Shown here piece after piece: positions 5,949-25,370 of a DNA stretch of 59,548 nt. Location of the stretch: assembly GCA_004298675.1 (NCBI GenBank), contig SCRI01000075.1:1-59548 (forward strand), given 5' to 3'. The notes beneath the pieces are model-generated. The model saw only the letters and a program-made list of their open reading frames with translations. It ran no database searches and was not told where the DNA came from. This DNA comes from a bacterium. GTDB lineage: Bacteria > Vulcanimicrobiota > Vulcanimicrobiia > Vulcanimicrobiales > SCRA01. A program made the position numbers and the translations under genes. Every line of letters begins with the position of its first letter. Within the stretch, counting starts at the first letter, position 1.

Positions 5949-6905
5949 ATGCGTGCGCTGATCACCGGAGCCGGCGGCTTCGTGGGCCGTTATCTCGCGT
6001 TGGAGCTGCTCGAGCGCGGTGCCGCCGTCATCGCCACCGGCGACCACGACGCACCGGCGTGGTGTGCCGAACATGCGCTGACGTGGAGCACGCTCGACGT
6101 GCGCGACGGCCAGGCCCTGGAGCGCGTGCTGACGCAGGCCGCCCCCGACGCGGTCTTTCATCTAGCCGCGCAGTCGTTCGTGCCCGAGTCGCTGGAGCAT
6201 CCGCGCGAGACGTTCGACGCCAACGTGCTGGGGACGCTCGCGCTGTTCCAAGCGCTGCGGAAACTACGCGAGCGCGGGCTCGATCCCGTGGTGCTGGTGA
6301 CCTCCAGCGCCGAAGTCTACGGCGCGATCCCCGAATACGACGGACCGCTCGAGGAGACGCGGCCCACCAATCCCCGCAATCCCTACGCGGCCAGCAAGGT
6401 AGCGCAAGAGGCCATCGCACAGGCGGCCTTCCACTCCTGGGGCGTGCGCAGCGTGATCGCGCGCGCGTTCAACCACACCGGCCCCGGGCAGAGCCGGCGT
6501 TTCGTGGTGCCCTCGTTCGCCTACCGCATCGCGCAGATCGTGGCCGGCGGCGATCCCACGCTGTGGGTGGGCAACATCGAGAGCCAGCGCGATTTCACGG
6601 ACGTGCGCGACGTGGTGCGCGCGTACGCGCTGCTGGCGGAGCACGGCGCGGCGGGACAGACGTACAACGTCTGCAGCGGCTACGCCTATCCCGTCAAGGA
6701 TCTGCTGCGCGATCTGATTCTGCTGTCGCACGCCGCGCTCTACGTGAAGGAGGATGCGCAGCGCCTGCGCCCCGGCGACTCGCCGGTGCTGGTGGGCTCC
6801 AACGCGAAGCTGCGTGCGGCGACCGGGTGGAAGCCGGAGCTGCGCATCGAGCGCACTCTGGAGGACGTCTACGACTTCGAGCGCGCGGCGCTGGTGAGCG
6901 CATGA
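5949..6905 (+). CDS. rmd: GDP-4-keto-6-deoxymannose reductase (NAD-dependent epimerase/dehydratase family)
   Basis: This 318-residue extended SDR has GAGGFVGRYL at residues 7-16 and YAASK as YxxxK (Y146, K150). Together with the gmd gene immediately upstream this fits the reductase that makes GDP-D-rhamnose. The FNHTGPGQ segment after the active site is typical of Rmd and Gmd relatives. The family is functionally mixed, so a different 4-keto reductase or epimerase is possible. Its TGA overlaps the ATG of larC (6902-6905), coupling sugar synthesis to the nickel cofactor genes. Confidence 0.82.
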   Translation: MRALITGAGGFVGRYLALELLERGAAVIATGDHDAPAWCAEHALTWSTLDVRDGQALERVLTQAAPDAVFHLAAQSFVPESLEHPRETFDANVLGTLALFQALRKLRERGLDPVVLVTSSAEVYGAIPEYDGPLEETRPTNPRNPYAASKVAQEAIAQAAFHSWGVRSVIARAFNHTGPGQSRRFVVPSFAYRIAQIVAGGDPTLWVGNIESQRDFTDVRDVVRAYALLAEHGAAGQTYNVCSGYAYPVKDLLRDLILLSHAALYVKEDAQRLRPGDSPVLVGSNAKLRAATGWKPELRIERTLEDVYDFERAALVSA

Positions 6906-8176
6906 AGGTCGCCTACGTCGAGATGGTGGGCGGCGCCGCCGGCAATATGCTGGCCGGTGCGTTCGTGGATCTGGGCGTGCCGCTGGAGTATCTGGAGTCC
7001 CAGCTACGCACGATTCCCGTGCACGGCTGGCGCATCGAGACCACGCGCGTGGTCAAACGCGGCATCGCCGCGACCTACCTGGACGTGATCGTTCCAGGCG
7101 AGGACCCGTCGCACGAACACGAACATCACGAGCACGAGCACGGCCATCACCATCACGGACACGAGCACGAGCACGAGCATCACCACGAGGGGCGGCCCAC
7201 GCGCCATCTCTCCGACGTGCTGGAGATCGTGGAGCGCTCGGGTCTCTCGCCGCGCGTGAAGCAACAAGCCGGTGCCGTCTACCGGCGCTTGGCGGAGGCC
7301 GAGGCGCGCGTGCACGGCACCACCGCCGAAGAGATTCACTTCCACGAAGTGGGGCAGGTCGACGCCATCGTCGACGTTGCGCTGACGTGCGTGGCGCTCG
7401 AGCAGTTGGGCGTCGAGCGTCTCTACTGCTCCGATGCGCCGGTGGGCCGCGGCGAGATCGACATGGCCCACGGCCGCTTTCCCAACCCGCCGCCGGCCAC
7501 GCTGGAGCTGCTGCGCGGGATTGCGCTGCGCCCGGTAGAGGTGCGCGGCGAGCTGGTGACCACCACGGCCGCGGCGATCCTGGGCACACTGGCCGTGCAT
7601 CCCGGCGAGCGCCCTGCCATGCGCGTGGAGGCGATCGGCTACGGCGCCGGCAGCAGCGATTTCCCTATCCCCAACGTCACGCGGATCTGCGTGGGCGAGT
7701 TGCTGGAACAGACGCCCGGCGGCGAGGCGTTCGAGCGCGACGAAGTGATGGTGCTGGAGGCCAACGTCGACGACATGGACCCGCGCTGGTTCGAGGGCGC
7801 CTTCGACGCGCTGTTGGCCGCCGGTGCCAACGACGTCTGGCTCACCCCCGTGCAGATGAAGAAGTCGCGCCCCGCGGTGATCGTCGGTGCCGTCTGCCAG
7901 GTAGAGCATGCCGACGCCGTGGCGCGCGCGCTGTTGGAACATACCACCACGCTGGGCGTGCGCATGCGCAAGCAAGAACGCGCGATCCTGCCGCGGCGCA
8001 TCCAGAGCATCGCGACGCCGCACGGCAGCGTGCGCGTGAAACTCAGCCGTCTTCCGGGCGGACGGGAGCGGCGCACCGTCGAATACGACGACGTGCGTGC
8101 CATCGCAACGGCGCGCGGCGTACCAATCGAGGCCGTCGTGCGCGAGCTCGAGGTGCGCTTGGAGGAATGGTCGTGA
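6902..8176 (+). CDS. larC: Nickel-pincer cofactor nickel insertase LarC
   Basis: This 424-residue cytosolic protein belongs to the LarC family, which uses CTP to insert nickel into the pyridinium bis-thiocarboxylate precursor. Residues 71-95 are a histidine run with 16 His in 25 positions, the variable metal-rich loop seen in many LarC proteins. Conserved parts include EIHFHEVGQVDAIVD (around 145-160), HGRFPNPPPAT and the C-terminal NVDDMDPRWF. It is one continuous frame, unlike the Lactiplantibacillus gene that needs a programmed frameshift. The usual N-terminal DCFSGISGDM is here EMVGGAAGNM (residues 7-16). The start overlaps the rmd stop. No larA or larB is present. Confidence 0.9.
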   Translation: MKVAYVEMVGGAAGNMLAGAFVDLGVPLEYLESQLRTIPVHGWRIETTRVVKRGIAATYLDVIVPGEDPSHEHEHHEHEHGHHHHGHEHEHEHHHEGRPTRHLSDVLEIVERSGLSPRVKQQAGAVYRRLAEAEARVHGTTAEEIHFHEVGQVDAIVDVALTCVALEQLGVERLYCSDAPVGRGEIDMAHGRFPNPPPATLELLRGIALRPVEVRGELVTTTAAAILGTLAVHPGERPAMRVEAIGYGAGSSDFPIPNVTRICVGELLEQTPGGEAFERDEVMVLEANVDDMDPRWFEGAFDALLAAGANDVWLTPVQMKKSRPAVIVGAVCQVEHADAVARALLEHTTTLGVRMRKQERAILPRRIQSIATPHGSVRVKLSRLPGGRERRTVEYDDVRAIATARGVPIEAVVRELEVRLEEWS

Positions 8177-9024
8177 TTGAGGCCGAGGCAACACTGGACG
8201 TCAAGGAGCAGCATCTGCGCGCGCTGCTGCGCGAGATGGGCTCGTGCATCATCGCCTTCAGCGGCGGCGTCGATTCCGCGCTGCTGTTGAAAGTGGCGGC
8301 ACAGGAGCTGGGGGAACGCGCCATCGGCGTGACGGGCCGCTCCGACTCGCTGGCTAAACGCGAGTTGGACGGCGTCATCGAGTTCGTGAAACTCATCGGC
8401 GCGCGCCACGAGCTGCTGGAGACGCGCGAGATGGAGGACGAGAACTATCTCGCCAATCCCATCAACCGCTGCTACTTCTGCAAGACCGAGCTCTTCACGC
8501 AGTTGGAACGCGTGCAGAAGAAGTTCAACGTCACGGCCATCTGCGACGGCTACAACGCCGACGACGGCGGCGATTTCCGCCCCGGCCGCAAGGCCGCGGG
8601 CGAGCACGAAGTGCGCCATCCGCTCTCTGAGGCGGGCTTCCACAAGGCCGACGTGCGCGCTCTAGCCCACAAGTTGAACTTGCCCGTGTGGGACAAGCCC
8701 GCGCTGGCCTGCCTCTCCTCGCGCGTGCCGTACGGCACCAAGATCACACCGGAGATCCTGGCACAGATCGACGCCACCGAGATGGCGGTGCTGGCAGAGG
8801 GCATCTCGCAGGTGCGCGTGCGCCATCACAAGGAGGTGGCCCGCGTCGAGATCCCGCCCGAGGAGTTCGCCAAGATCCTGGAACCCGGCGTGCGCGACCG
8901 CATCACCGCCGCGGCCCGCAAGGCCGGCTATCGCTTCGTCGCGCTCGATCTGCTGGGGTATCGCAGCGGGTCGATGCATGAGGGGCTGGATAATGCGAAG
9001 GCCAAGGTAGGCGCCTCGGCGTAA
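8173..9024 (+). CDS. larE: ATP-dependent sulfur transferase LarE (PP-loop)
   Basis: This 283-residue protein of the LarE family activates the cofactor precursor with ATP and adds the two sulfur atoms of the nickel-pincer nucleotide. The PP-loop SGGVDS is at residues 30-35. Three cysteines stand out: C100 and C103 in NRCYFCK and C180 in ACLSSRVPYG; C180 aligns with the cysteine sacrificed by the Lactiplantibacillus enzyme. The GTG at 8173 is chosen because GGAGGA (8161-8166) lies six bases before it and GTGA overlaps the larC stop; ATG at 8167 is too close to that site. Confidence 0.9.
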   Translation: MIEAEATLDVKEQHLRALLREMGSCIIAFSGGVDSALLLKVAAQELGERAIGVTGRSDSLAKRELDGVIEFVKLIGARHELLETREMEDENYLANPINRCYFCKTELFTQLERVQKKFNVTAICDGYNADDGGDFRPGRKAAGEHEVRHPLSEAGFHKADVRALAHKLNLPVWDKPALACLSSRVPYGTKITPEILAQIDATEMAVLAEGISQVRVRHHKEVARVEIPPEEFAKILEPGVRDRITAAARKAGYRFVALDLLGYRSGSMHEGLDNAKAKVGASA

Positions 9025-9034
9025 CAAGGGCGCC

Positions 9035-9613
9035 GTGTCGGCCTTTGTTTTCAAGAACCGTGGCGCGATCTTGGCGCTGGGCGCGGTGCTGCTCGTGGTG
9101 TTGGGGCGCCCCGCGCCCGGCGCGCTGCTGGGCGTGGGGATCGCGATCGCGCTGCTGGGGGAGCTGCTCCGCATCTGGGCGGTGGGCTACTCCGGGGTCA
9201 CCACGCGCGCCGATCACGTGACGGCGCCGGCGCTGGTGACGGCCGGCCCCTACGCCTACGTGCGCAATCCGCTCTACGTGGGCAACTTCATCACCGCGGC
9301 GGGCTTCGCATTGGCCTTCGTCTCCGGTATGCGGCCCGTCGCGGCGGTGGTGCTGGCGGTTGTCGTGCTGGGCTTGATGGTGGCGACCTACGCCGTCATC
9401 ATCCCGTATGAAGAGGCGTTCCTCGCCCGCACGTTCGGCGAGCCGTTCGCCGCCTATCTGCGCGCGGTGCCGCGCGTGTTGCCGCGTGCGCCGCGCGCGC
9501 CGGGAGCGGGCTCCTATCGCCCGGAGGTGATCTGGCGCGCGGAGACGCGCACGTTCGTCACCTTCGTCGTGGTGCTGGCGCTGCTGGCGCTACGCCTGTG
9601 GAGCGCGCGCTGA
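9035..9613 (+). CDS. Isoprenylcysteine carboxyl methyltransferase / PEMT family membrane protein
   Basis: This 192-residue integral membrane protein has about four or five hydrophobic segments. GPYAYVRNPLYVGN (around residues 71-84) and the later EEAFLARTFGEPFAAY are the two SAM-binding signatures of the ICMT/phospholipid methyltransferase superfamily. Bacterial members methylate diverse lipophilic substrates and none can be named here. The start is a GTG 10 nt after larE; the gene closes the gmd-rmd-larC-larE run. A short hydrophobic tail after residue 170 is an additional transmembrane segment. Confidence 0.75.
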   Translation: MSAFVFKNRGAILALGAVLLVVLGRPAPGALLGVGIAIALLGELLRIWAVGYSGVTTRADHVTAPALVTAGPYAYVRNPLYVGNFITAAGFALAFVSGMRPVAAVVLAVVVLGLMVATYAVIIPYEEAFLARTFGEPFAAYLRAVPRVLPRAPRAPGAGSYRPEVIWRAETRTFVTFVVVLALLALRLWSAR

Positions 9614-9637
9614 CGCGCGCCGCCTGCCAAATCCCCA

Positions 9638-9666
9638 TTGCGCTTGCGCTCGAACGTGGGTATACT
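9638..9666 (+). promoter_or_regulatory. Sigma70-type promoter of the structured RNA
   Basis: TTGCGC (9638-9643), a 17-bp spacer and TATACT (9661-9666) form a good promoter. The expected start, about 9672-9674, falls exactly on the first bases of the terminal helix of the RNA. The same TTGCGC minus-35 with 17-bp spacing occurs in front of lexA. Confidence 0.65.
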
Positions 9667-9671
9667 TCTCG

Positions 9672-10042
9672 ACACGGAACCTCGAGTGGTTCGTCGTTGC
9701 AGTAAGGCCGAAACCTGAGGGCCGCATGAGGCGGCGTCGTCCGGGCAACGTTCCGGGCGATCTCCCCCAGGTGCTGGACTCCCGCCCTCGCGGGCGGGTT
9801 GGAGATGGCGGAGACCCGCCGGAAAAGAAGGGGACGGAGCCGCGATGTCGGCTCCCGAGCCGATGCCAGAATCGGGTCGGAATCCGGCGCGAAAAGATCG
9901 CCGGAAGAGGGCGCCCAAGGCGCCCGAAAGACGGTTGCGGTGAGGGTCATCCCCGAGCTGCGACGTATGCCGACTGGGGACTAGTGGGCCACTAGCGCCC
10001 GGCAGACCTCGCAACGACCCGAGATTACTCGAGGTTTCGTGT
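9672..10042 (+). ncRNA. Unclassified highly structured RNA, about 370 nt
   Basis: The two ends pair over 16 bp with a single G-U (9672-9687 with 10027-10042). Inside that helix 9693-9700 (GTCGTTGC) pairs perfectly with 10011-10018 (GCAACGAC). Between them lies a string of hairpins: GCCGC/GCGGC (9721-9735), ATCTCC/GGAGAT enclosing CCCGCC/GGCGGG (9760-9806), GGCGG/CCGCC (9807-9820), GGAGCCG/CGGCTCC (9836-9855), CCGGCG/CGCCGG (9884-9904), GGGCGCC/GGCGCCC (9910-9926) and CTAGT/ACTAG (9981-9995). I find no RNase P core (GAGGAAAGTCC), no tmRNA T-arm or tag, no SRP GGAA domain and no riboswitch consensus I know. It could be a free RNA or a long leader of the thiolase gene. Confidence 0.6.
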
Positions 10043-10120
10043 TGTCCGCTCCTCCAGGTCCCGCTCGCCGCGCAGGCGAAGTTGAGCAGGTCCTACCCCA
10101 CGGAGTGAAGAGAATCAGCA

Positions 10121-11458
<1,338 letters not shown>

Positions 11459-17602: not shown

Positions 17603-17795
17603 ATCGCCGAAAAAATAGATCATTTCGCTGATGAAAAGACGCTGATTGTTCGGCGTTTTGGCCGGTTTAGCCGCGTCGCGCGGCAGGGCCGCGGGGCACT
17701 CCGACTCGAAGAGGGCGCCTTCGGTCTCGGCTGGGCGACGTTCGGAATCCGCTTAGCCGTGGGCCGGTGTGCGTTACCTAGAAGAGGATGGGAAC
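17603..17795 (+). other. Upstream region of the first TonB receptor gene
   Basis: This 193-bp region contains an AT-richer stretch just after the regulator gene (17603-17660), unusual for this window, and a GTTTTGGCC block that also occurs upstream of the second receptor (around 21653). The ribosome site and start context AGGATGGGAACATG is shared by both receptor genes. I see no convincing minus-35/minus-10 pair. Confidence 0.4.
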
Positions 17796-20700
17796 ATGCC
17801 GAGATTTGCGTTTCGGCGTTCGCTCATCGCACTATTCGCGCTCGTGGCGATGCTGGTCCAGGGAACATGGGCACTGGCCGGCACCACGGGTTCGTTGACC
17901 GGAACGGTGGTTCTCGCCGAGAGCCAGGCCCCGGTCGCGGGTGCGAAGGTCACGATCTCCTCGCCTTCACAGGTGGAGTCTGCGACCTCGGACGCTAAAG
18001 GAAGCTTTGCTTTCCTCTCGCTCGCACCGGACGCGTATGTCGTCACCGTGGAGAAGGAAGGCTATCAGACGGTTTCCCAAACGGGAGTCACCGTCTTCGC
18101 CGATCAGTCACAGACGCTGACGATCGGCTTGCTCAAGATCATCGGTAAAGTCACCACGCGCGCGGCTAGCGCGTTGGTGAAACCCGGCACCACCGCCGAC
18201 ATCTACTCCGTGGGCGCGGCGCAGCAGCAGGCCGTAGCGGGCCTGGGCGGCGGCGGCGGCCTCAACAACGCCTACTCGGGCATCGCCTCGGTGCCCGGCG
18301 TGTACGTCCCGCAGGGGCAGAGCGGCTGGGCACAGTCGGTCTACGTCCGCGGCGCCGACTACACGCAGCTGGGCTACGAGTACGACGGCGTACCGGTGCA
18401 GCGCGCCTTCGACGCCTACCCGGCGGCCACACTCTCCGCGCTAGGCCAGCAGGAGCTGCAGGTCTACACCGGCGCTCAGCCGATCGACGCGCAGAGCACG
18501 GGCCTGGGCGGTTTCATCAACCAGGTCATCAAGACCGGAACGTATCCCGGCTTCGCAAACCTCTCGCTGGGGGTCGGCGGACCCGCGTTCTACCACCAGG
18601 CGCAGTTCGAGATCGGCGGCGCCAATGCCAGCCGCATGTTCTCGTACTACATCGCTTCGGCGGGCTACAACCAGGAGATCCGTTTCGGTTCGCAGTTCAA
18701 CGGTAACGACTTGACCTCGCGCTACGCGCTGGGCACGCCATATAACTTCCTGGTCAACGGCTGCGGCACGCCCAGTGCCACTACCGGCTGCTACTCGAAC
18801 GGTGCGGGCATCTCCGGCTTCACGCCCATCGGCCCCAACGGCTACGCCGTCGGTCCGTTCCAGTACGGCTTTGCCTCCAACCTCGCCGACCGCGAGAGCG
18901 TGGTGAACCTGCACTTCGGCATCCCGCACCGTAAGGACGCGGGTCGTGACGACGTGCAGCTGCTCTACGACACCTCCACGCTCTACACGTACTTCAGCAC
19001 GGCGTTGAACGACTTCGGCACCTCGGCGAACGACGTGGCTAACGGCACCATCACGCAGAACGGCACGGTCTACCCGTCGTGCACCGGAACGAATCAACCA
19101 TGTGCGCTCTTTGGCGGCGATGCGCCGTTCTATATCGACACGCAGACCTACACCGGAAAGATGGGCGTGCCGCTGACGGCGGGCTCTGTGAACAGCGTCT
19201 CCAATTACTACTTCCCCAGCTCGCCTAACAATCGCGCGGCCTTTGCCAACATCTCGCCCACGCATCGGGATGCCACCGTCAACGACGCGACGATCGTCAA
19301 GCTACAGTACCAGAAGAACATCGGCACGAATGCCTACTTCCGCGTGTACGGCTACACGTTCTACTCCGACTGGCTCAACAACGGCGCCGATAGCTTGACC
19401 GGCAATATCTGGGGGCCGATCCCCACCGACTACGAGCTGAACACGCACACGCGGGGCGTGGCGGGCACCTTCGCCGATCAGCTCAACTCTCAACACTTGC
19501 TGAACGTCACGGGCTCCTTCACGGACGCCGCCACGACGCGTTGGAACAACTGGTTCTTCCTCGGCTCACCGCCGTTTGCCAGCGGTAAGGTGGCCTATCT
19601 GGTCGACTCGACCAACCCGACGAGTGGGCTCTGCTACGGACCGGCGGGCGGTACCGCGGCCGCGGCCGTCTACTGCGGGTCGAAGAAGGCGGCTACCTAT
19701 GCGCTGCCGGGCTTCGGCTCCGGCCCTCTTGCGCCGGTCGGCTCCTCGCCGACGGTTCAGGCGGCCAGCGGCCTGACCTGCGGCAGTGGGCCGTGCGAAT
19801 ACTTCGTGGCCGAGAACGGAACGATCGGCACCTTCAACACGGTGGTGCCGAAGTTCTCGTCGTTCTCGATCTCCGACAACTGGAAGCCTAGCAACAAGCT
19901 GCTGGTCAACCTCGGTCTGCGCTACGACAACTTCACCTACGACCTCACCGATACCGCAGGCGGTCCCGCGCGCACGCTGTGGCAGAACTCGTACAACGCG
20001 TTCCACTGCTTCAGCTTGGCAACGGGAGTCACGTCAACGTCTACGGCCAACAGCTGCCCCGCCGGGCAATCGCAGGTAGCGTTCTCCAATGCCTCGCCGT
20101 CGACGGTGACCTTCACCGATTGGGAGCCGCGCATCGGGTTCACGTACTCGCAGAATCCGCTGAACGTCTTCCGCTTCTCGTACGGCAAGTACGACCAGCC
20201 CGCGAGCTCGGCGTACCAGCAGTACAACGTGGCCCAGCAGAACCTGGCTGGGTACGACGTGCCGAAATTCTATTCGTTCGGCTTCAAGGATCCGGCGCAC
20301 GGCATCCCGCCGGCGATCTCGTACAACACCGACTTCTCCTGGGAGCACCAGGTCAAGGGGTCGGATATGTCCTGGAAGCTGACGCCGTTCTACCGCACCA
20401 CCAAGAACCAGCTTGCCAGCGTGCTGCTGGATCCCAAGACCAACTTCGTCTCGGCGATCAACGTGGGTAAGGAGACGGCCGAAGGCTTCGAGCTCTTGCT
20501 CCAAAAGGGCAACTTCAACGAGAACGGTCTGGCTGGCCAGCTCTCGTTCACCTACACCCACGGTACGGAGAAGTTCCAGCAGCTGGCGAACGGTGCGACC
20601 GTCGTCGACGGCTTGAACCTCAACATCCTGGGCTACAACCAGTACACCAAGTTCTGTGCGACCAATCCCACGGATAGCCGCTGCAGCAGCGCGAAGCTGA

Positions 20701-21491
20701 ACTTCACGCCGATCACGGCAGCAGCATGCTTCAACACCGGCACCGGCGCGCCTGACCCAACCTGTGCGGCAGGCGACGTCCAGAACCCGTACTGGAACGC
20801 TCCGGTACAGAGCCTCTTCAGTGCGAGCGATACCTTCCCGCCGTTCAACCAGTTCCCGTCCACCGCCGGCGCCACCGGCGTGGCCGGAAGCTACGTCGAA
20901 CCGTACACGGCTGCGCTCGTGTTGAACTACAAGCACAACAAATGGGCGGTGACGCCGACCTTCCAGCTCTCCGCGGGCGGGAAGTACGGCACGCCGCTGG
21001 CCGCGCTTGGCGTGGATCCGGCGACGTGCGCCGGCACGCTGGCGGCCACCGGTACCGATCCGCGAAACCCCGGGGGCTCGGGTCAGGGGGCGCTCTACGA
21101 TGCGCAAACCTGCGGCGGCGCGATCGGTATCCCCGATCCCTACACCGGGAAGTTCGACTCGCTCGGCGCGTTCACGCAGCCCGCGCAGTTGGTTGGGAAT
21201 CTCCAGATCAGCTACCAGGCCACGCCGCGCGTGCAGTTCGTCTTGACGATGGTCAACGTGCTCAACAGCTGCTTCGGCGGCTCCAGCGAGCCGTGGAACA
21301 CCGGCAAGCCAACCTGCGGGTACTTCTTCTCGCCGCTGCCGTACGTCGGGAACTTCTACAATCCCGGCAACACGATCCAGAACGGGGCCCAGTTCCCCTA
21401 TGGACCGGCCTTCGGCAGCGTTTTCCAGCAGGCGTATCAGAGTCAGTCCAACCCGTTCGAGGCCTTCTTCGCGGTGCACGTCAAGCTCTAG
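17796..21491 (+). CDS. TonB-dependent outer-membrane receptor with N-terminal carboxypeptidase-regulatory-like domain (copy 1)
   Basis: This 1231-residue outer-membrane protein has a signal peptide at residues 1-27 (RRSLIALFALVAMLVQG core). A beta-sandwich of the carboxypeptidase-regulatory type (about 28-115, GSLTGTVV to QTLTIGLLK) follows, then a plug domain (about 120-245, with GVYVPQGQSGW and SVYVRGADYTQLGYEYDG), then a large beta-barrel. It is much longer than classical siderophore receptors and resembles OAR-like receptors that take up large or peptide/glycan substrates. Several barrel loops carry paired cysteines. The C-terminus is HVKL without the usual terminal phenylalanine. ATG 17796 is chosen for the signal peptide and GAAGAGGA site; an upstream in-frame GTG at 17769 is rejected. 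Confidence 0.88.
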   Translation: MPRFAFRRSLIALFALVAMLVQGTWALAGTTGSLTGTVVLAESQAPVAGAKVTISSPSQVESATSDAKGSFAFLSLAPDAYVVTVEKEGYQTVSQTGVTVFADQSQTLTIGLLKIIGKVTTRAASALVKPGTTADIYSVGAAQQQAVAGLGGGGGLNNAYSGIASVPGVYVPQGQSGWAQSVYVRGADYTQLGYEYDGVPVQRAFDAYPAATLSALGQQELQVYTGAQPIDAQSTGLGGFINQVIKTGTYPGFANLSLGVGGPAFYHQAQFEIGGANASRMFSYYIASAGYNQEIRFGSQFNGNDLTSRYALGTPYNFLVNGCGTPSATTGCYSNGAGISGFTPIGPNGYAVGPFQYGFASNLADRESVVNLHFGIPHRKDAGRDDVQLLYDTSTLYTYFSTALNDFGTSANDVANGTITQNGTVYPSCTGTNQPCALFGGDAPFYIDTQTYTGKMGVPLTAGSVNSVSNYYFPSSPNNRAAFANISPTHRDATVNDATIVKLQYQKNIGTNAYFRVYGYTFYSDWLNNGADSLTGNIWGPIPTDYELNTHTRGVAGTFADQLNSQHLLNVTGSFTDAATTRWNNWFFLGSPPFASGKVAYLVDSTNPTSGLCYGPAGGTAAAAVYCGSKKAATYALPGFGSGPLAPVGSSPTVQAASGLTCGSGPCEYFVAENGTIGTFNTVVPKFSSFSISDNWKPSNKLLVNLGLRYDNFTYDLTDTAGGPARTLWQNSYNAFHCFSLATGVTSTSTANSCPAGQSQVAFSNASPSTVTFTDWEPRIGFTYSQNPLNVFRFSYGKYDQPASSAYQQYNVAQQNLAGYDVPKFYSFGFKDPAHGIPPAISYNTDFSWEHQVKGSDMSWKLTPFYRTTKNQLASVLLDPKTNFVSAINVGKETAEGFELLLQKGNFNENGLAGQLSFTYTHGTEKFQQLANGATVVDGLNLNILGYNQYTKFCATNPTDSRCSSAKLNFTPITAAACFNTGTGAPDPTCAAGDVQNPYWNAPVQSLFSASDTFPPFNQFPSTAGATGVAGSYVEPYTAALVLNYKHNKWAVTPTFQLSAGGKYGTPLAALGVDPATCAGTLAATGTDPRNPGGSGQGALYDAQTCGGAIGIPDPYTGKFDSLGAFTQPAQLVGNLQISYQATPRVQFVLTMVNVLNSCFGGSSEPWNTGKPTCGYFFSPLPYVGNFYNPGNTIQNGAQFPYGPAFGSVFQQAYQSQSNPFEAFFAVHVKL

Positions 21492-21530
21492 GGCGCGCTG
21501 CTCCGCGGCGGATGCCGCAACGATCAACGA

Positions 21531-21561
21531 AGGGGTCCGGCTTCGGCCGGGCCCCTTTTTT
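21531..21561 (+). terminator. Intrinsic terminator after TonB receptor 1
   Basis: A 10-11-bp GC-rich stem (21531-21541 with 21546-21556) capped by the stable TTCG tetraloop is followed by six T residues. This is a textbook intrinsic terminator and separates the two receptor genes. Confidence 0.9.
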
Positions 21562-21698
21562 CACGCGTTTCAAGGGCAGGGAAGCATGCCCATGGGTCGA
21601 AACCGTTCACTCAGCCGGACACGGCCAGCGTGGGAACCTCATTGCGGGGTGCCCGTTTTGGCCTTGCCGGGGTGTGCATAAACGATAAGGATGGGAAC

Positions 21699-24600
21699 AT
21701 GAGGAATTTCAGGTTCCGGCATCCGTTCATTGCACTGCTCGTACTCGTGGCGATGCTGTTCCAGGGAACATGGGCACTGGGCGGCACCACGGGTGGATTG
21801 AGCGGCAATGTCGTCCTCGCGGATACCAACGCGCCGGTTGCCGGCGCGAAGGTCTCCGTTTCGTCACCTTCCGAGGTGCAGTCGACGACAACGGATGCCC
21901 AAGGCCACTTCGCCTTCGTCTCCCTTGCACCTGACACGTATACCGTGTCGGTGGAGAAGGAAGGCTACCAGTCCGTCTCACAGACCGGGATCGCCGTCTT
22001 CGCCGACAACGTGCAGACGGTCAGCATCTCGATGCTGAAGGTCATCGGCAAGGTGACCACGCGCGCGGTCAGCGCGCTGGTCAAGCCCGGTACCACGGCG
22101 GACGTCTACTCCATCAACGCCGCGACGGCCGACAAGATGACGGCCCTGGGCGGCGGCGGCGGCCTGAACAGCGCCTACTCCGCGATCTCCGCGGTGCCGG
22201 GCGCGTACGTTCCCGCAGGCAATCAGGGCTGGTTCCAAACCGTCTTGATCCGCGGCGGTGACTACGATCAGGTCGGCTACGAGTTCGACGGTATCCCCGT
22301 CAACCGCTCGTTCGACAACTACCCCAGCGGCAACGCCTCGGCGCTGGGTCAGCAGGAGCTGCAGGTGTACACCGGCGCCGCTCCGGCCGATGCTGAGGCT
22401 CAGGGACTCTCCGGGTTCATCAACCAGGTCATCAAGACCGGAACCTATCCTGGCTTCGCCTCGGTGGACCTGGGCATCGGTGCCCCGACGTTCTACCACA
22501 AGGCCAACTTCGAGATCGGCGGCGCCAACCGCGCCCGTACCTTCTCGTACTACGTTGGCATCGGTGGCTACGATCAGGACTACCGGTTCATCGATCAGAA
22601 CAACGGCGCCGGCATCTCGGGCAACTGGGGTGCGCCGTTCGATCAGCTGCCGTGCCCAACGGGTCCGACCGCGATCAACTTCTCGGCGTGCTACGCCAAC
22701 GGCTCCGTTGGCCCGGGCGGCTACATCATGGGTCCGTACCAGATGTTCAGCCCGTCGCACATCAGCGATCGCGAAAACGTCGTGAACCTGCACTTCGCCG
22801 TCCCGCACAAGAAGGACGCCGGGCGCGACGATATCCAGCTGCTGTATGATACCTCGAACCTGAACACGTCGTACTACAGCTCGCTGAACGACTGGACGCA
22901 GGCGCTCTTCGACGGCGACGTCACCGGCCTGAACTCCGGTAACGGCGGCGCGGTCGGCAGCAACTATCCGTTCTACATCGGCGGCTTCAAGTACAGCGGA
23001 ACCGTCGGCACAGCGCTGCCGGCTAACTACCGGAGCAAGACCACGCTGTACACATACCCCAGCTCCAATGGAGCGTGGCTGGGGACGCCGATCGATCCCA
23101 AGGCGCGCGATGCCAACAACAACTCGGCGACGATCGTCAAGTTACAGTACCAGCACAACATCGGCTCCAGCGCGTATCTGCGTGCCTACGGGTATCTCTT
23201 CTACTCCGACTGGTTCCTGTGGGGGCCCAACAGCACGTTCTCGAACTACGTGGGCGTCAATCCCCCGGATTACGAGTTGACGACTCACACGCACGGCGGC
23301 AGCATCAGCTACGCCAACCAGATCAACTCGAAGAACCTGCTCAACGTCCAGTTCTCGGCGGTGGGCGCATCGTCGATCCGCAACAACAACACGGAGATGC
23401 TGGACTCGGTCTCGGGTAGCCGCAAGACCTTTGCGCTGCTCGTGAACCAGAACAATCCGCTAAGCGGCGTCTGCTATACCTCCGCTGGAGCAGCGACGTC
23501 GTGCTATGGCGGCAGCCAGGCCAAGGCGACCTTCAAGAACGCCTACGCCGGCACGATCCCCGCAGCCCCCGCGGTCTGCGACACCGGTGCCAATGCCGGG
23601 CCCTGCGAATGGTACGTCGTTGAGAGCGGCCCGCACGGCACGTTCAACAACGTCAAGCCGACCTTCTACTCGTTCTCGATCTCCGATCAGTGGAAGCCCA
23701 CGGACCGGCTGCTCGTGAACCTGGGACTGCGGCTGGATGACTACCGCTTCTTGGGGGGCGATACGACGGGCCCCGCGCGCAACTTCTGGTTCAACGCGTG
23801 GAATGCGTCGGCTTGCATCTCCAACGTGCTGGGCAGCACGCCGGTCGACAAGACCAGCCTTGGTCTGACCGTCGCTCAGCCCTGCTCGGCGGCGAATGCC
23901 GGCAACACGAAGTACGCGCCGGCGACGCTGGCCAACAATTCCTCCGGAACCCAGACCTTCAACGTCTGGCAGCCGCGCGTGGGCCTCACCTACACGGTGA
24001 ACCCGTTCAACGTGCTGCGCGCCAGCTACGGCAAGTACTCGCAGGCGCCGAACTCGGCGTTCGAACAGTACAACACCGACGAGCAGAACCTGCCGGGCTT
24101 CCTGGGGCCGCGCTTCTATCAGTACGGCCGCACCCAGCCCAGCTACCCGATCCGTCCCGAGGTTTCGAATAACTTCGACTTCTCGTGGGAGCATCAGGCC
24201 AAGGGCAGCGACCTCTCCTGGAAGCTCACGCCGTTCTACCGTAAGACGAGCGATCAGATCCAGCAGTTCTACCTGGATCAGAAGACCAACTTCGTCTCCG
24301 GCTTGAACGTCGGCAACCAGACCAGTGAGGGCGTGGAGTTCCAGCTGAACAAGGGGAGCTTCAGTCAGAACGGCTTCGCCTATCAGCTGTCCTACACGTA
24401 CACCCACAGCACGATCAAGTTCAATACGCTGTCGAACGGCTCGACGATCGTCGCGCCGATCAACAACGCCATCGTGCAGTACAACGCCTTCACGTCGTAC
24501 TGCTCGACGCATGCGACCGATGCCCGCTGCGGCAGCGGCCAGCAGATACTGGATAACAACACGGCCACACCGATCGTCGCCGCACCGTGTTACACCGCTG

Positions 24601-25370
24601 CGGGTGCCGCAGTAGCCTTGGCTACTAGCTGCAACGCCACGGATGTCCAAAACCCCTACTGGAACGCTCCGGTGCAGAGCCTGTTGGATCCGAGCGCGAG
24701 CTACGCTCCGTTCGACCTCTTCCCAGGTGGCGTCGGCAGCTCGTACAACTCGATTGCGGTGCCGCACGTGGCGACGCTGGTCGTGAACTACAAGCACGAC
24801 CGTTGGTCCGTCACGCCGTCACTGCAGTTCCAGGCCGGCACCAAGTACGGTGCACCGGAGTCGACCGCGGGTGTTGACCCGCTGGCCGGCTGCAGCCCGC
24901 TGGCTGTTGGCGGAACCGATCCGCGCAACAAGTACAGCTCTGGCTCCGGCAACCTGTACGACGCCACGACCTGCGGGTCCACGTTGCCGATCCCCGATCA
25001 GTACACCGGGGCCTTCGACAACCTGGGTGCCTTCACGGCTCCTTCGGAGCTGATCGGCAATCTGCAGATCTCGTACGAAGCCTCGCCGCGCGTCACGTTC
25101 CAGTTGACGCTGGCGAACATCGTCAACAGCTGCTTCGGCGGCTCTTCACAGGCCTGGACCCAGGGCGCAGGCAAGAACGTCTGCTCCTACGGTGTCTTGG
25201 GTCAGGGCGCGATCTCGCCCGTCGGGAACGTCTACAACCCCGGCGCGCAGATTCAGCCCTACGTGCAGTACCCGTACCTGCGTAACTTCGGTCCTTACAA
25301 CGCGGGCTCGGGCGGTGCGCTTCCGAACCAGCCGTTCAACGCCTACTTCGACGTCAAGGTCAAACTCTAG
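21699..25370 (+). CDS. TonB-dependent outer-membrane receptor with N-terminal carboxypeptidase-regulatory-like domain (copy 2)
   Basis: This 1223-residue paralogue of the preceding gene has the same order: signal peptide 1-27 (FIALLVLVAMLFQGTWALG), carboxypeptidase-regulatory-like domain about 28-115, plug about 120-245 (VLIRGGDYDQVGYEFDGIPV), barrel to the end (DVKVKL). The N-terminal third is far more alike between the copies than the barrel loops, as expected if the two share TonB partners and secretion but differ in ligand. The start is set by the signal peptide and the AAGGA site; the frame extends to 21630 without it. It has its own terminator, so expression can be independent of copy 1. 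The ligand is unknown. Confidence 0.88.
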   Translation: MRNFRFRHPFIALLVLVAMLFQGTWALGGTTGGLSGNVVLADTNAPVAGAKVSVSSPSEVQSTTTDAQGHFAFVSLAPDTYTVSVEKEGYQSVSQTGIAVFADNVQTVSISMLKVIGKVTTRAVSALVKPGTTADVYSINAATADKMTALGGGGGLNSAYSAISAVPGAYVPAGNQGWFQTVLIRGGDYDQVGYEFDGIPVNRSFDNYPSGNASALGQQELQVYTGAAPADAEAQGLSGFINQVIKTGTYPGFASVDLGIGAPTFYHKANFEIGGANRARTFSYYVGIGGYDQDYRFIDQNNGAGISGNWGAPFDQLPCPTGPTAINFSACYANGSVGPGGYIMGPYQMFSPSHISDRENVVNLHFAVPHKKDAGRDDIQLLYDTSNLNTSYYSSLNDWTQALFDGDVTGLNSGNGGAVGSNYPFYIGGFKYSGTVGTALPANYRSKTTLYTYPSSNGAWLGTPIDPKARDANNNSATIVKLQYQHNIGSSAYLRAYGYLFYSDWFLWGPNSTFSNYVGVNPPDYELTTHTHGGSISYANQINSKNLLNVQFSAVGASSIRNNNTEMLDSVSGSRKTFALLVNQNNPLSGVCYTSAGAATSCYGGSQAKATFKNAYAGTIPAAPAVCDTGANAGPCEWYVVESGPHGTFNNVKPTFYSFSISDQWKPTDRLLVNLGLRLDDYRFLGGDTTGPARNFWFNAWNASACISNVLGSTPVDKTSLGLTVAQPCSAANAGNTKYAPATLANNSSGTQTFNVWQPRVGLTYTVNPFNVLRASYGKYSQAPNSAFEQYNTDEQNLPGFLGPRFYQYGRTQPSYPIRPEVSNNFDFSWEHQAKGSDLSWKLTPFYRKTSDQIQQFYLDQKTNFVSGLNVGNQTSEGVEFQLNKGSFSQNGFAYQLSYTYTHSTIKFNTLSNGSTIVAPINNAIVQYNAFTSYCSTHATDARCGSGQQILDNNTATPIVAAPCYTAAGAAVALATSCNATDVQNPYWNAPVQSLLDPSASYAPFDLFPGGVGSSYNSIAVPHVATLVVNYKHDRWSVTPSLQFQAGTKYGAPESTAGVDPLAGCSPLAVGGTDPRNKYSSGSGNLYDATTCGSTLPIPDQYTGAFDNLGAFTAPSELIGNLQISYEASPRVTFQLTLANIVNSCFGGSSQAWTQGAGKNVCSYGVLGQGAISPVGNVYNPGAQIQPYVQYPYLRNFGPYNAGSGGALPNQPFNAYFDVKVKL

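Follow-up and report, generated by a model that had tools for sequence, protein, structure and literature searches.

What does the interval between a membrane methyltransferase gene and a thiolase gene encode in a bacterium of Candidatus Eremiobacterota, where a preliminary description had recognized an unclassified structured RNA? In the window, as the whole stretch of 59,548 nucleotides analysed here is called, this interval holds what, judged by comparison with related genomes, is a real and selected structured RNA, an orphan confined to one genus and provided with a promoter of its own. The fold, the identity of the RNA relative to fourfold-degenerate sites, the invariant promoter hexamers, the compensatory changes and the lack of a coding signature are the grounds for this conclusion. 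The RNA class is probably real, is unmatched in Rfam and is so far limited to one genus. The favoured reading, to which a probability of about 60% is assigned, is an independent non-coding RNA of about 375 nt that would represent a new orphan class, known so far from one Candidatus Eremiobacterota genus.

The locus and its neighbours

The features of the locus are as follows.

9035–9613, + strand: upstream gene for an ICMT/PEMT-type membrane methyltransferase (Pfam PF04191, PF04140)
9638–9643, + strand: -35 element TTGCGC, invariant in four species
9661–9666, + strand: -10 element TATACT, invariant in four species; predicted transcription start at about 9672–9674
9670–10044, + strand: structured RNA, about 375 nt (fold z of -6.0, conservation, covariation)
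10045–10120, + strand: spacer between RNA and thiolase gene, poorly conserved; terminator not found
10121–11458, + strand: downstream thiolase gene (Pfam PF00108, PF02803)

The comparison set consists of four sampled species of one genus, including that of the window and two others referred to as G001 and G002. The RNA is single-copy and has the same two neighbours in all four genomes, and the thiolase start invariably lies about 75–95 nt 3' of it on the same strand. The sequence that links the two, ribosome site included, is conserved far below the level of the RNA. Among the thiolase relatives that carry names, the top two come from Candidatus Eremiobacterota metagenome-assembled genomes, with 62% and 59% identity, and the third has 51%.

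Two other parts of the window are recorded here in passing. Just 5' of the methyltransferase/RNA locus, at 6900–9024, are putative proteins that by eye resemble LarC and LarE of nickel-pincer cofactor synthesis. Positions 17769–25370 hold two tandem paralogues of about 1240 aa with CarboxypepD_reg, Plug and TonB-receptor barrel domains.

Fold of the RNA

The + strand of the RNA folds with an energy of -205.9 kcal/mol, compared with -174.8 ± 5.2 for shuffled sequences (z = -6.0; none of 100 shuffles as low), and its GC-corrected energy is the lowest among 634 segments of 374 nt from both strands of the 59.5-kb window. A terminal helix of about 29 bp, composed of P1a (9670–9691/10023–10044) and P1b (9693–9699/10012–10018), encloses a multi-branched body with at least ten hairpins or sub-helices.

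9670–9691, + strand: 5' arm of P1a; CGGAACCUCGAGUGGUUC (9675–9692) invariant
9693–9699, + strand: 5' arm of P1b, partner 10012–10018
9713–9772, + strand: branched domain, P3 (9713–9719/9766–9772) around P4 (9721–9735) and P5 (9736–9761); AU/GC exchange in P3, GC/AU in P5
9781–9820, + strand: hairpins P6 (9781–9798, CG/UA exchange) and P7 (9807–9820)
9815–9834, + strand: longest invariant run, CCCGCCGGAAAAGAAGGGGA, which the model leaves unpaired over its 3' two thirds
9836–9925, + strand: hairpins P8 (9836–9855), P9 (9860–9880), P10 (9883–9905) and P11 (9909–9925); two-sided changes in P10 and P11
9934–9964, + strand: hairpin P12; the G001 sequence is widely diverged and still folds as a hairpin
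9969–10003, + strand: hairpin P13; the CUAGU/ACUAG inner stem is invariant, and the loop reads GGGCC, GGGCA or CGAUC
10012–10018, + strand: 3' arm of P1b, partner 9693–9699
10023–10044, + strand: 3' arm of P1a; AGAUUACUCGAGGUUUCG (10022–10039) invariant

The 16-bp helix that had been described between 9672–9687 and 10027–10042 is real and forms part of the longer P1a. The inner helix, claimed as 8 bp (9693–9700 with 10011–10018), also exists, and is modelled here with slightly narrower limits as P1b; hairpins are indeed present between the arms, and they number at least ten, sub-helices included, where at least seven had first been counted. Fold predictions compete over pairings near 9769–9780 and 9991–9998. 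It was also observed that the 5' arm of P1a (9675–9692) can fold on itself as GAACC-UCGAGU-GGUUC, and that ACCUCG recurs just before 10012; alternative pairings of the RNA ends are therefore possible.

Promoter and 5' end

In the four species, a conserved promoter, recognized by its hexamers, stands directly before the helix of about 29 bp that joins both ends of the RNA. The early proposal of TTGCGC and TATACT separated by 17 bp before this helix was borne out, as both hexamers are invariant in the four species despite drift of the spacer between them, in sequence as well as in length (17 bp in the window, 17–18 bp among the species). The distance from the start to the terminal helix is fixed across the species, and a TATACT -10 hexamer also precedes the RNase P RNA gene of the same genome. 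Because the -35 element matches only 3/6 of the sigma-70 consensus, the pair is not listed by a strict promoter scan. RNA polymerase would initiate at about 9672, and from this start the first bases would enter the terminal helix directly, as in stable RNAs with paired ends.

Conservation, covariation and coding potential

Pairwise identity of the RNA is 82–94%, compared with 57–77% at fourfold-degenerate thiolase sites of the same species pairs in a codon alignment. Covariation in relatives, which the preliminary description had named as a check, was found: eight base pairs carry pairing-preserving changes on both sides, a number reached by none of 500 shuffles (3.0 ± 1.3), and with only four sequences the majority of pairs show no variation, which limits the covariation. 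In the alignment, 98.4% of cells are paired, while sliding the partners by 1–3 columns lowers this to 35–47% with 0–2 two-sided pairs. The terminal helix itself covaries, with CG, GC and UA in columns 44:414 (unpaired in one species) and AU and GC in columns 45:413. In addition, several long runs are invariant beyond what pairing explains, foremost CCCGCCGGAAAAGAAGGGGA at 9815–9834, and may be candidate sites of protein, RNA or tertiary contacts. At the level of the aligned sequences, the comparison shows that selection has maintained the structure of a body of more than ten helices, together with several single-stranded runs that do not vary.

Could the same conservation reflect a small protein gene or a dual-function RNA? 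The + strand has ORFs of 61–89 aa, most with a common TAG end, and a 32-aa ORF from the P8 loop; in each of the four species an ORF runs up to the conserved GACUAG, and AAGAAGGGGA resembles a ribosome site. However, such ORFs are common at 67% GC, indels shift the frame between species, and no protein match was found in plasmids. A coding signature was sought in all six frames of both strands across the four species, and no codon-position bias emerged: the three codon positions share the substitutions evenly, and non-synonymous changes exceed synonymous ones. A coding role is consequently very improbable. Equally little can be said for a former insertion element of MITE-like type, with terminal inverted repeats, that became fixed at one site, a notion that deserves hardly any credence. 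The imperfect inverted ends of about 29 bp and the existence of relatives that have the site without the RNA would fit it, but the sequence is single-copy with no others in its own genome, is more conserved than its flanks, carries compensatory changes and is preceded, immediately outside the repeat, by an invariant promoter of its own.

Relation to known RNA families

A search of the whole window against Rfam 15 at gathering thresholds gave no match, and even at E <= 10 the region returned only chance-level matches to parts of it. For three homologues, searched at E <= 1, the only result was a sub-threshold Xoo5 match on the other strand and outside the RNA. A strong Rfam match had been named in advance as what could end the claim of novelty, and no meaningful one appeared.

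RNase P RNA and tmRNA are the most natural comparisons, being similar in size (350–375 nt) and likewise single genes with a promoter and helix-closed ends. The locus differs from both in that it has no sequence or covariance-model match to them, and normal copies of both are encoded elsewhere in the genome: RNase P RNA at G000:C46:178032 (245.8 bits) and tmRNA at G000:C50:78576 (125.8 bits), both above the Rfam cut-offs, with RF00010 (E <= 10) and RF00023 unmatched at the locus. 6S RNA (G000:C3:32729) and SRP RNA (G000:C46:45259) are also found above cut-off, and RF00013 and RF00169 are unmatched here. Because a normal copy of each exists elsewhere, the RNA fills none of these four roles. The initial judgement that it is neither RNase P RNA nor tmRNA therefore holds, and of the three options originally left side by side, namely a new class, a very divergent known one or a thiolase leader, the second is disfavoured for housekeeping RNAs, while the structured RNA with its own promoter stands, unmatched in Rfam. 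More broadly, a divergent member of any known large RNA (RNase P RNA, tmRNA, 6S, SRP RNA, group I/II intron, GOLLD, ROOL or OLE) is suggested by the size class and the closed ends that recall RNase P RNA and tmRNA; given the chance-level Rfam matches, the four normal housekeeping copies and the absence from the viral contigs searched, it is very unlikely and can be regarded as largely refuted. A hammerhead ribozyme was also considered, on account of a match in another genome of the phylum (G133, below), and rejected: of the hammerhead core (CUGANGA ... GAAA, with an NUH cleavage site), CUGANGA is replaced by UUGGAGA in the window, stem III is absent on inspection and Rfam gives no match.

OLE, ROOL and GOLLD resemble the RNA as orphans with elaborate conserved secondary structure and unassigned function. 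Their Rfam models have no match at the RNA, which unlike them is chromosomal and lies away from tRNA and phage genes. ROOL env-120 measures 659 nt and GOLLD RNAs exceed 800 nt (PMC12286853), so that the RNA is about half as long as the former and less than half as long as the latter. The orphan structured motifs of intergenic comparative screens (PMC6429828, PMC2864571) rest on the same kind of evidence, being intergenic, structured, covarying and conserved; the RNA described here falls outside Rfam 15, is large, and among the genomes searched occurs in one genus only.

An independent RNA or a thiolase leader

The main rival, since no clear terminator follows the RNA, is that the RNA forms a long, structured leader at the 5' end of the thiolase mRNA and controls thiolase by a riboswitch-, protein- or attenuation-type mechanism. 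Like known leaders and riboswitches, the RNA lies on the same strand before a metabolic gene, about 75–95 nt from it in all four species. Neither in the window nor in G001 did a simple scan find a convincing intrinsic terminator 3' of the RNA, a separate thiolase promoter in the spacer is not obvious by eye, and G002 has a terminator-like hairpin, CUCGAG-AUUA-CUCGAG, in the 3' arm with a U-rich tail. On inspection, however, this hairpin pairs less well in the species of the window and is disrupted in G001, so that not all four keep it, and no conserved expression platform was found. Synteny carries little weight, as the arrangement has been seen in a single genus; conservation is poor in the spacer that holds the ribosome site, and the thiolase genes of relatives lack such a leader. 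A helix closing both ends at the start site, here 29 bp long, is typical of independent stable RNAs, and a sensor RNA of 375 nt would be large. As to the missing terminator, the tmRNA and 6S genes of the same genome are followed by a hairpin and T-rich sequence by eye, though the simple scan lists neither, whereas no such sequence follows the RNA studied here. Control of thiolase by a leader is accordingly a possibility to be taken seriously, though an unlikely one.

For the independent RNA, which is preferred, either processing or inefficient termination would generate the 3' end immediately past the terminal helix, and some transcription may continue into thiolase. The closed RNA would be stable and may serve as a trans-acting scaffold, either by itself, in complex with protein or through self-assembly.

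A lead for self-assembly comes from the P13 loop, which reads GGGCC, GGGCC, GGGCA and CGAUC in the four species and contains a self-complementary tetramer in three of them (GGCC in the window and G002, GAUC in G001). Palindromic loops that switch sequence in this manner have been described for inter-molecular kissing loops in OLE and GOLLD (PMC12286853), and the possible palindrome of P13 is of the sort that pairs between copies there. With ten loops to choose from, it is a lead, not evidence. That the RNA is a new bacterial machine, an independent molecule of about 375 nt that self-assembles through the P13 loop or works as an RNP, in the style of ornate RNAs but chromosomal and in one Eremiobacterota genus, is thus a speculative and rather doubtful suggestion.

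Distribution and origin

Blastn matches to the whole RNA fall in four genomes that belong to a single genus. Searches with a 3-mismatch pattern among 103 genomes of the order, and with a covariance model of the 3' third (R2) among 149 Eremiobacterota genomes, recovered these four and none besides. As the models were built on four close sequences with strict filters, distant homologues may be missed. Phages and plasmids searched by blastn gave no match, nor did viral contigs searched with exact RNA patterns.

A model of the middle third (R1) gave many low-scoring matches in the 149 genomes of the phylum. The best, in G133 (29.8 bits), consists of hammerhead-like elements beside a Twister-P5 ribozyme, and another, L103, lies in protein-coding-looking sequence by a low-complexity repeat; both were rejected as homologues because neither has an R2 part adjacent. 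A blastn match in G085 (E 8e-4) was rejected as well, with no other part of the RNA there. The G133 elements are an observation of their own: three hammerhead-like copies and one Twister-P5 ribozyme (Rfam, 56.4 bits) occupy positions 122–178, 611–666, 1493–1550 and 2443–2503 of L102 and precede small phage-like genes. The hammerhead-like element has the form GUC, CUGAGGA-stem-GAAAC with an extra U, and all three copies are below the Rfam cut-off.

In the sister family, most genomes with measurable loci have a methyltransferase–thiolase interval of either 0.9–1.0 kb or 55 bp. In the long form, the gene before thiolase encodes a cation-efflux transporter (PF01545; two loci checked), and the 55-bp interval is that of a different genus in the sister family. 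L014, one of the two top thiolase relatives, has a methyltransferase–thiolase junction identical base for base to that of two genomes in the window's order. This shared junction and the two top thiolase relatives point to Eremiobacterota as the phylum of the window. The interval, 9614–10120 in the window and compared across loci L126–L152, is in this respect a swap site, filled by an insert of about 0.9–1.0 kb, by 55 bp or by the RNA according to lineage. Because only the four congeners carry the RNA, with a cation-efflux gene or 55 bp in neighbouring lineages, the RNA appears to have been gained, or to have become recognizable, in the window's genus.

Significance

Bacteria have few large structured RNAs, several of which have turned out to be ribozymes or unusual RNA assemblies. 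An Rfam-unmatched RNA that is conserved above the silent sites of its neighbour, with a defined predicted 5' start and closed ends, would be a compact target for probing and cryo-EM in a little-studied phylum. Moreover, its apparent gain at the level of a genus, at a site that in neighbouring lineages is empty or occupied by a cation-efflux gene, would make the origin of the RNA traceable.
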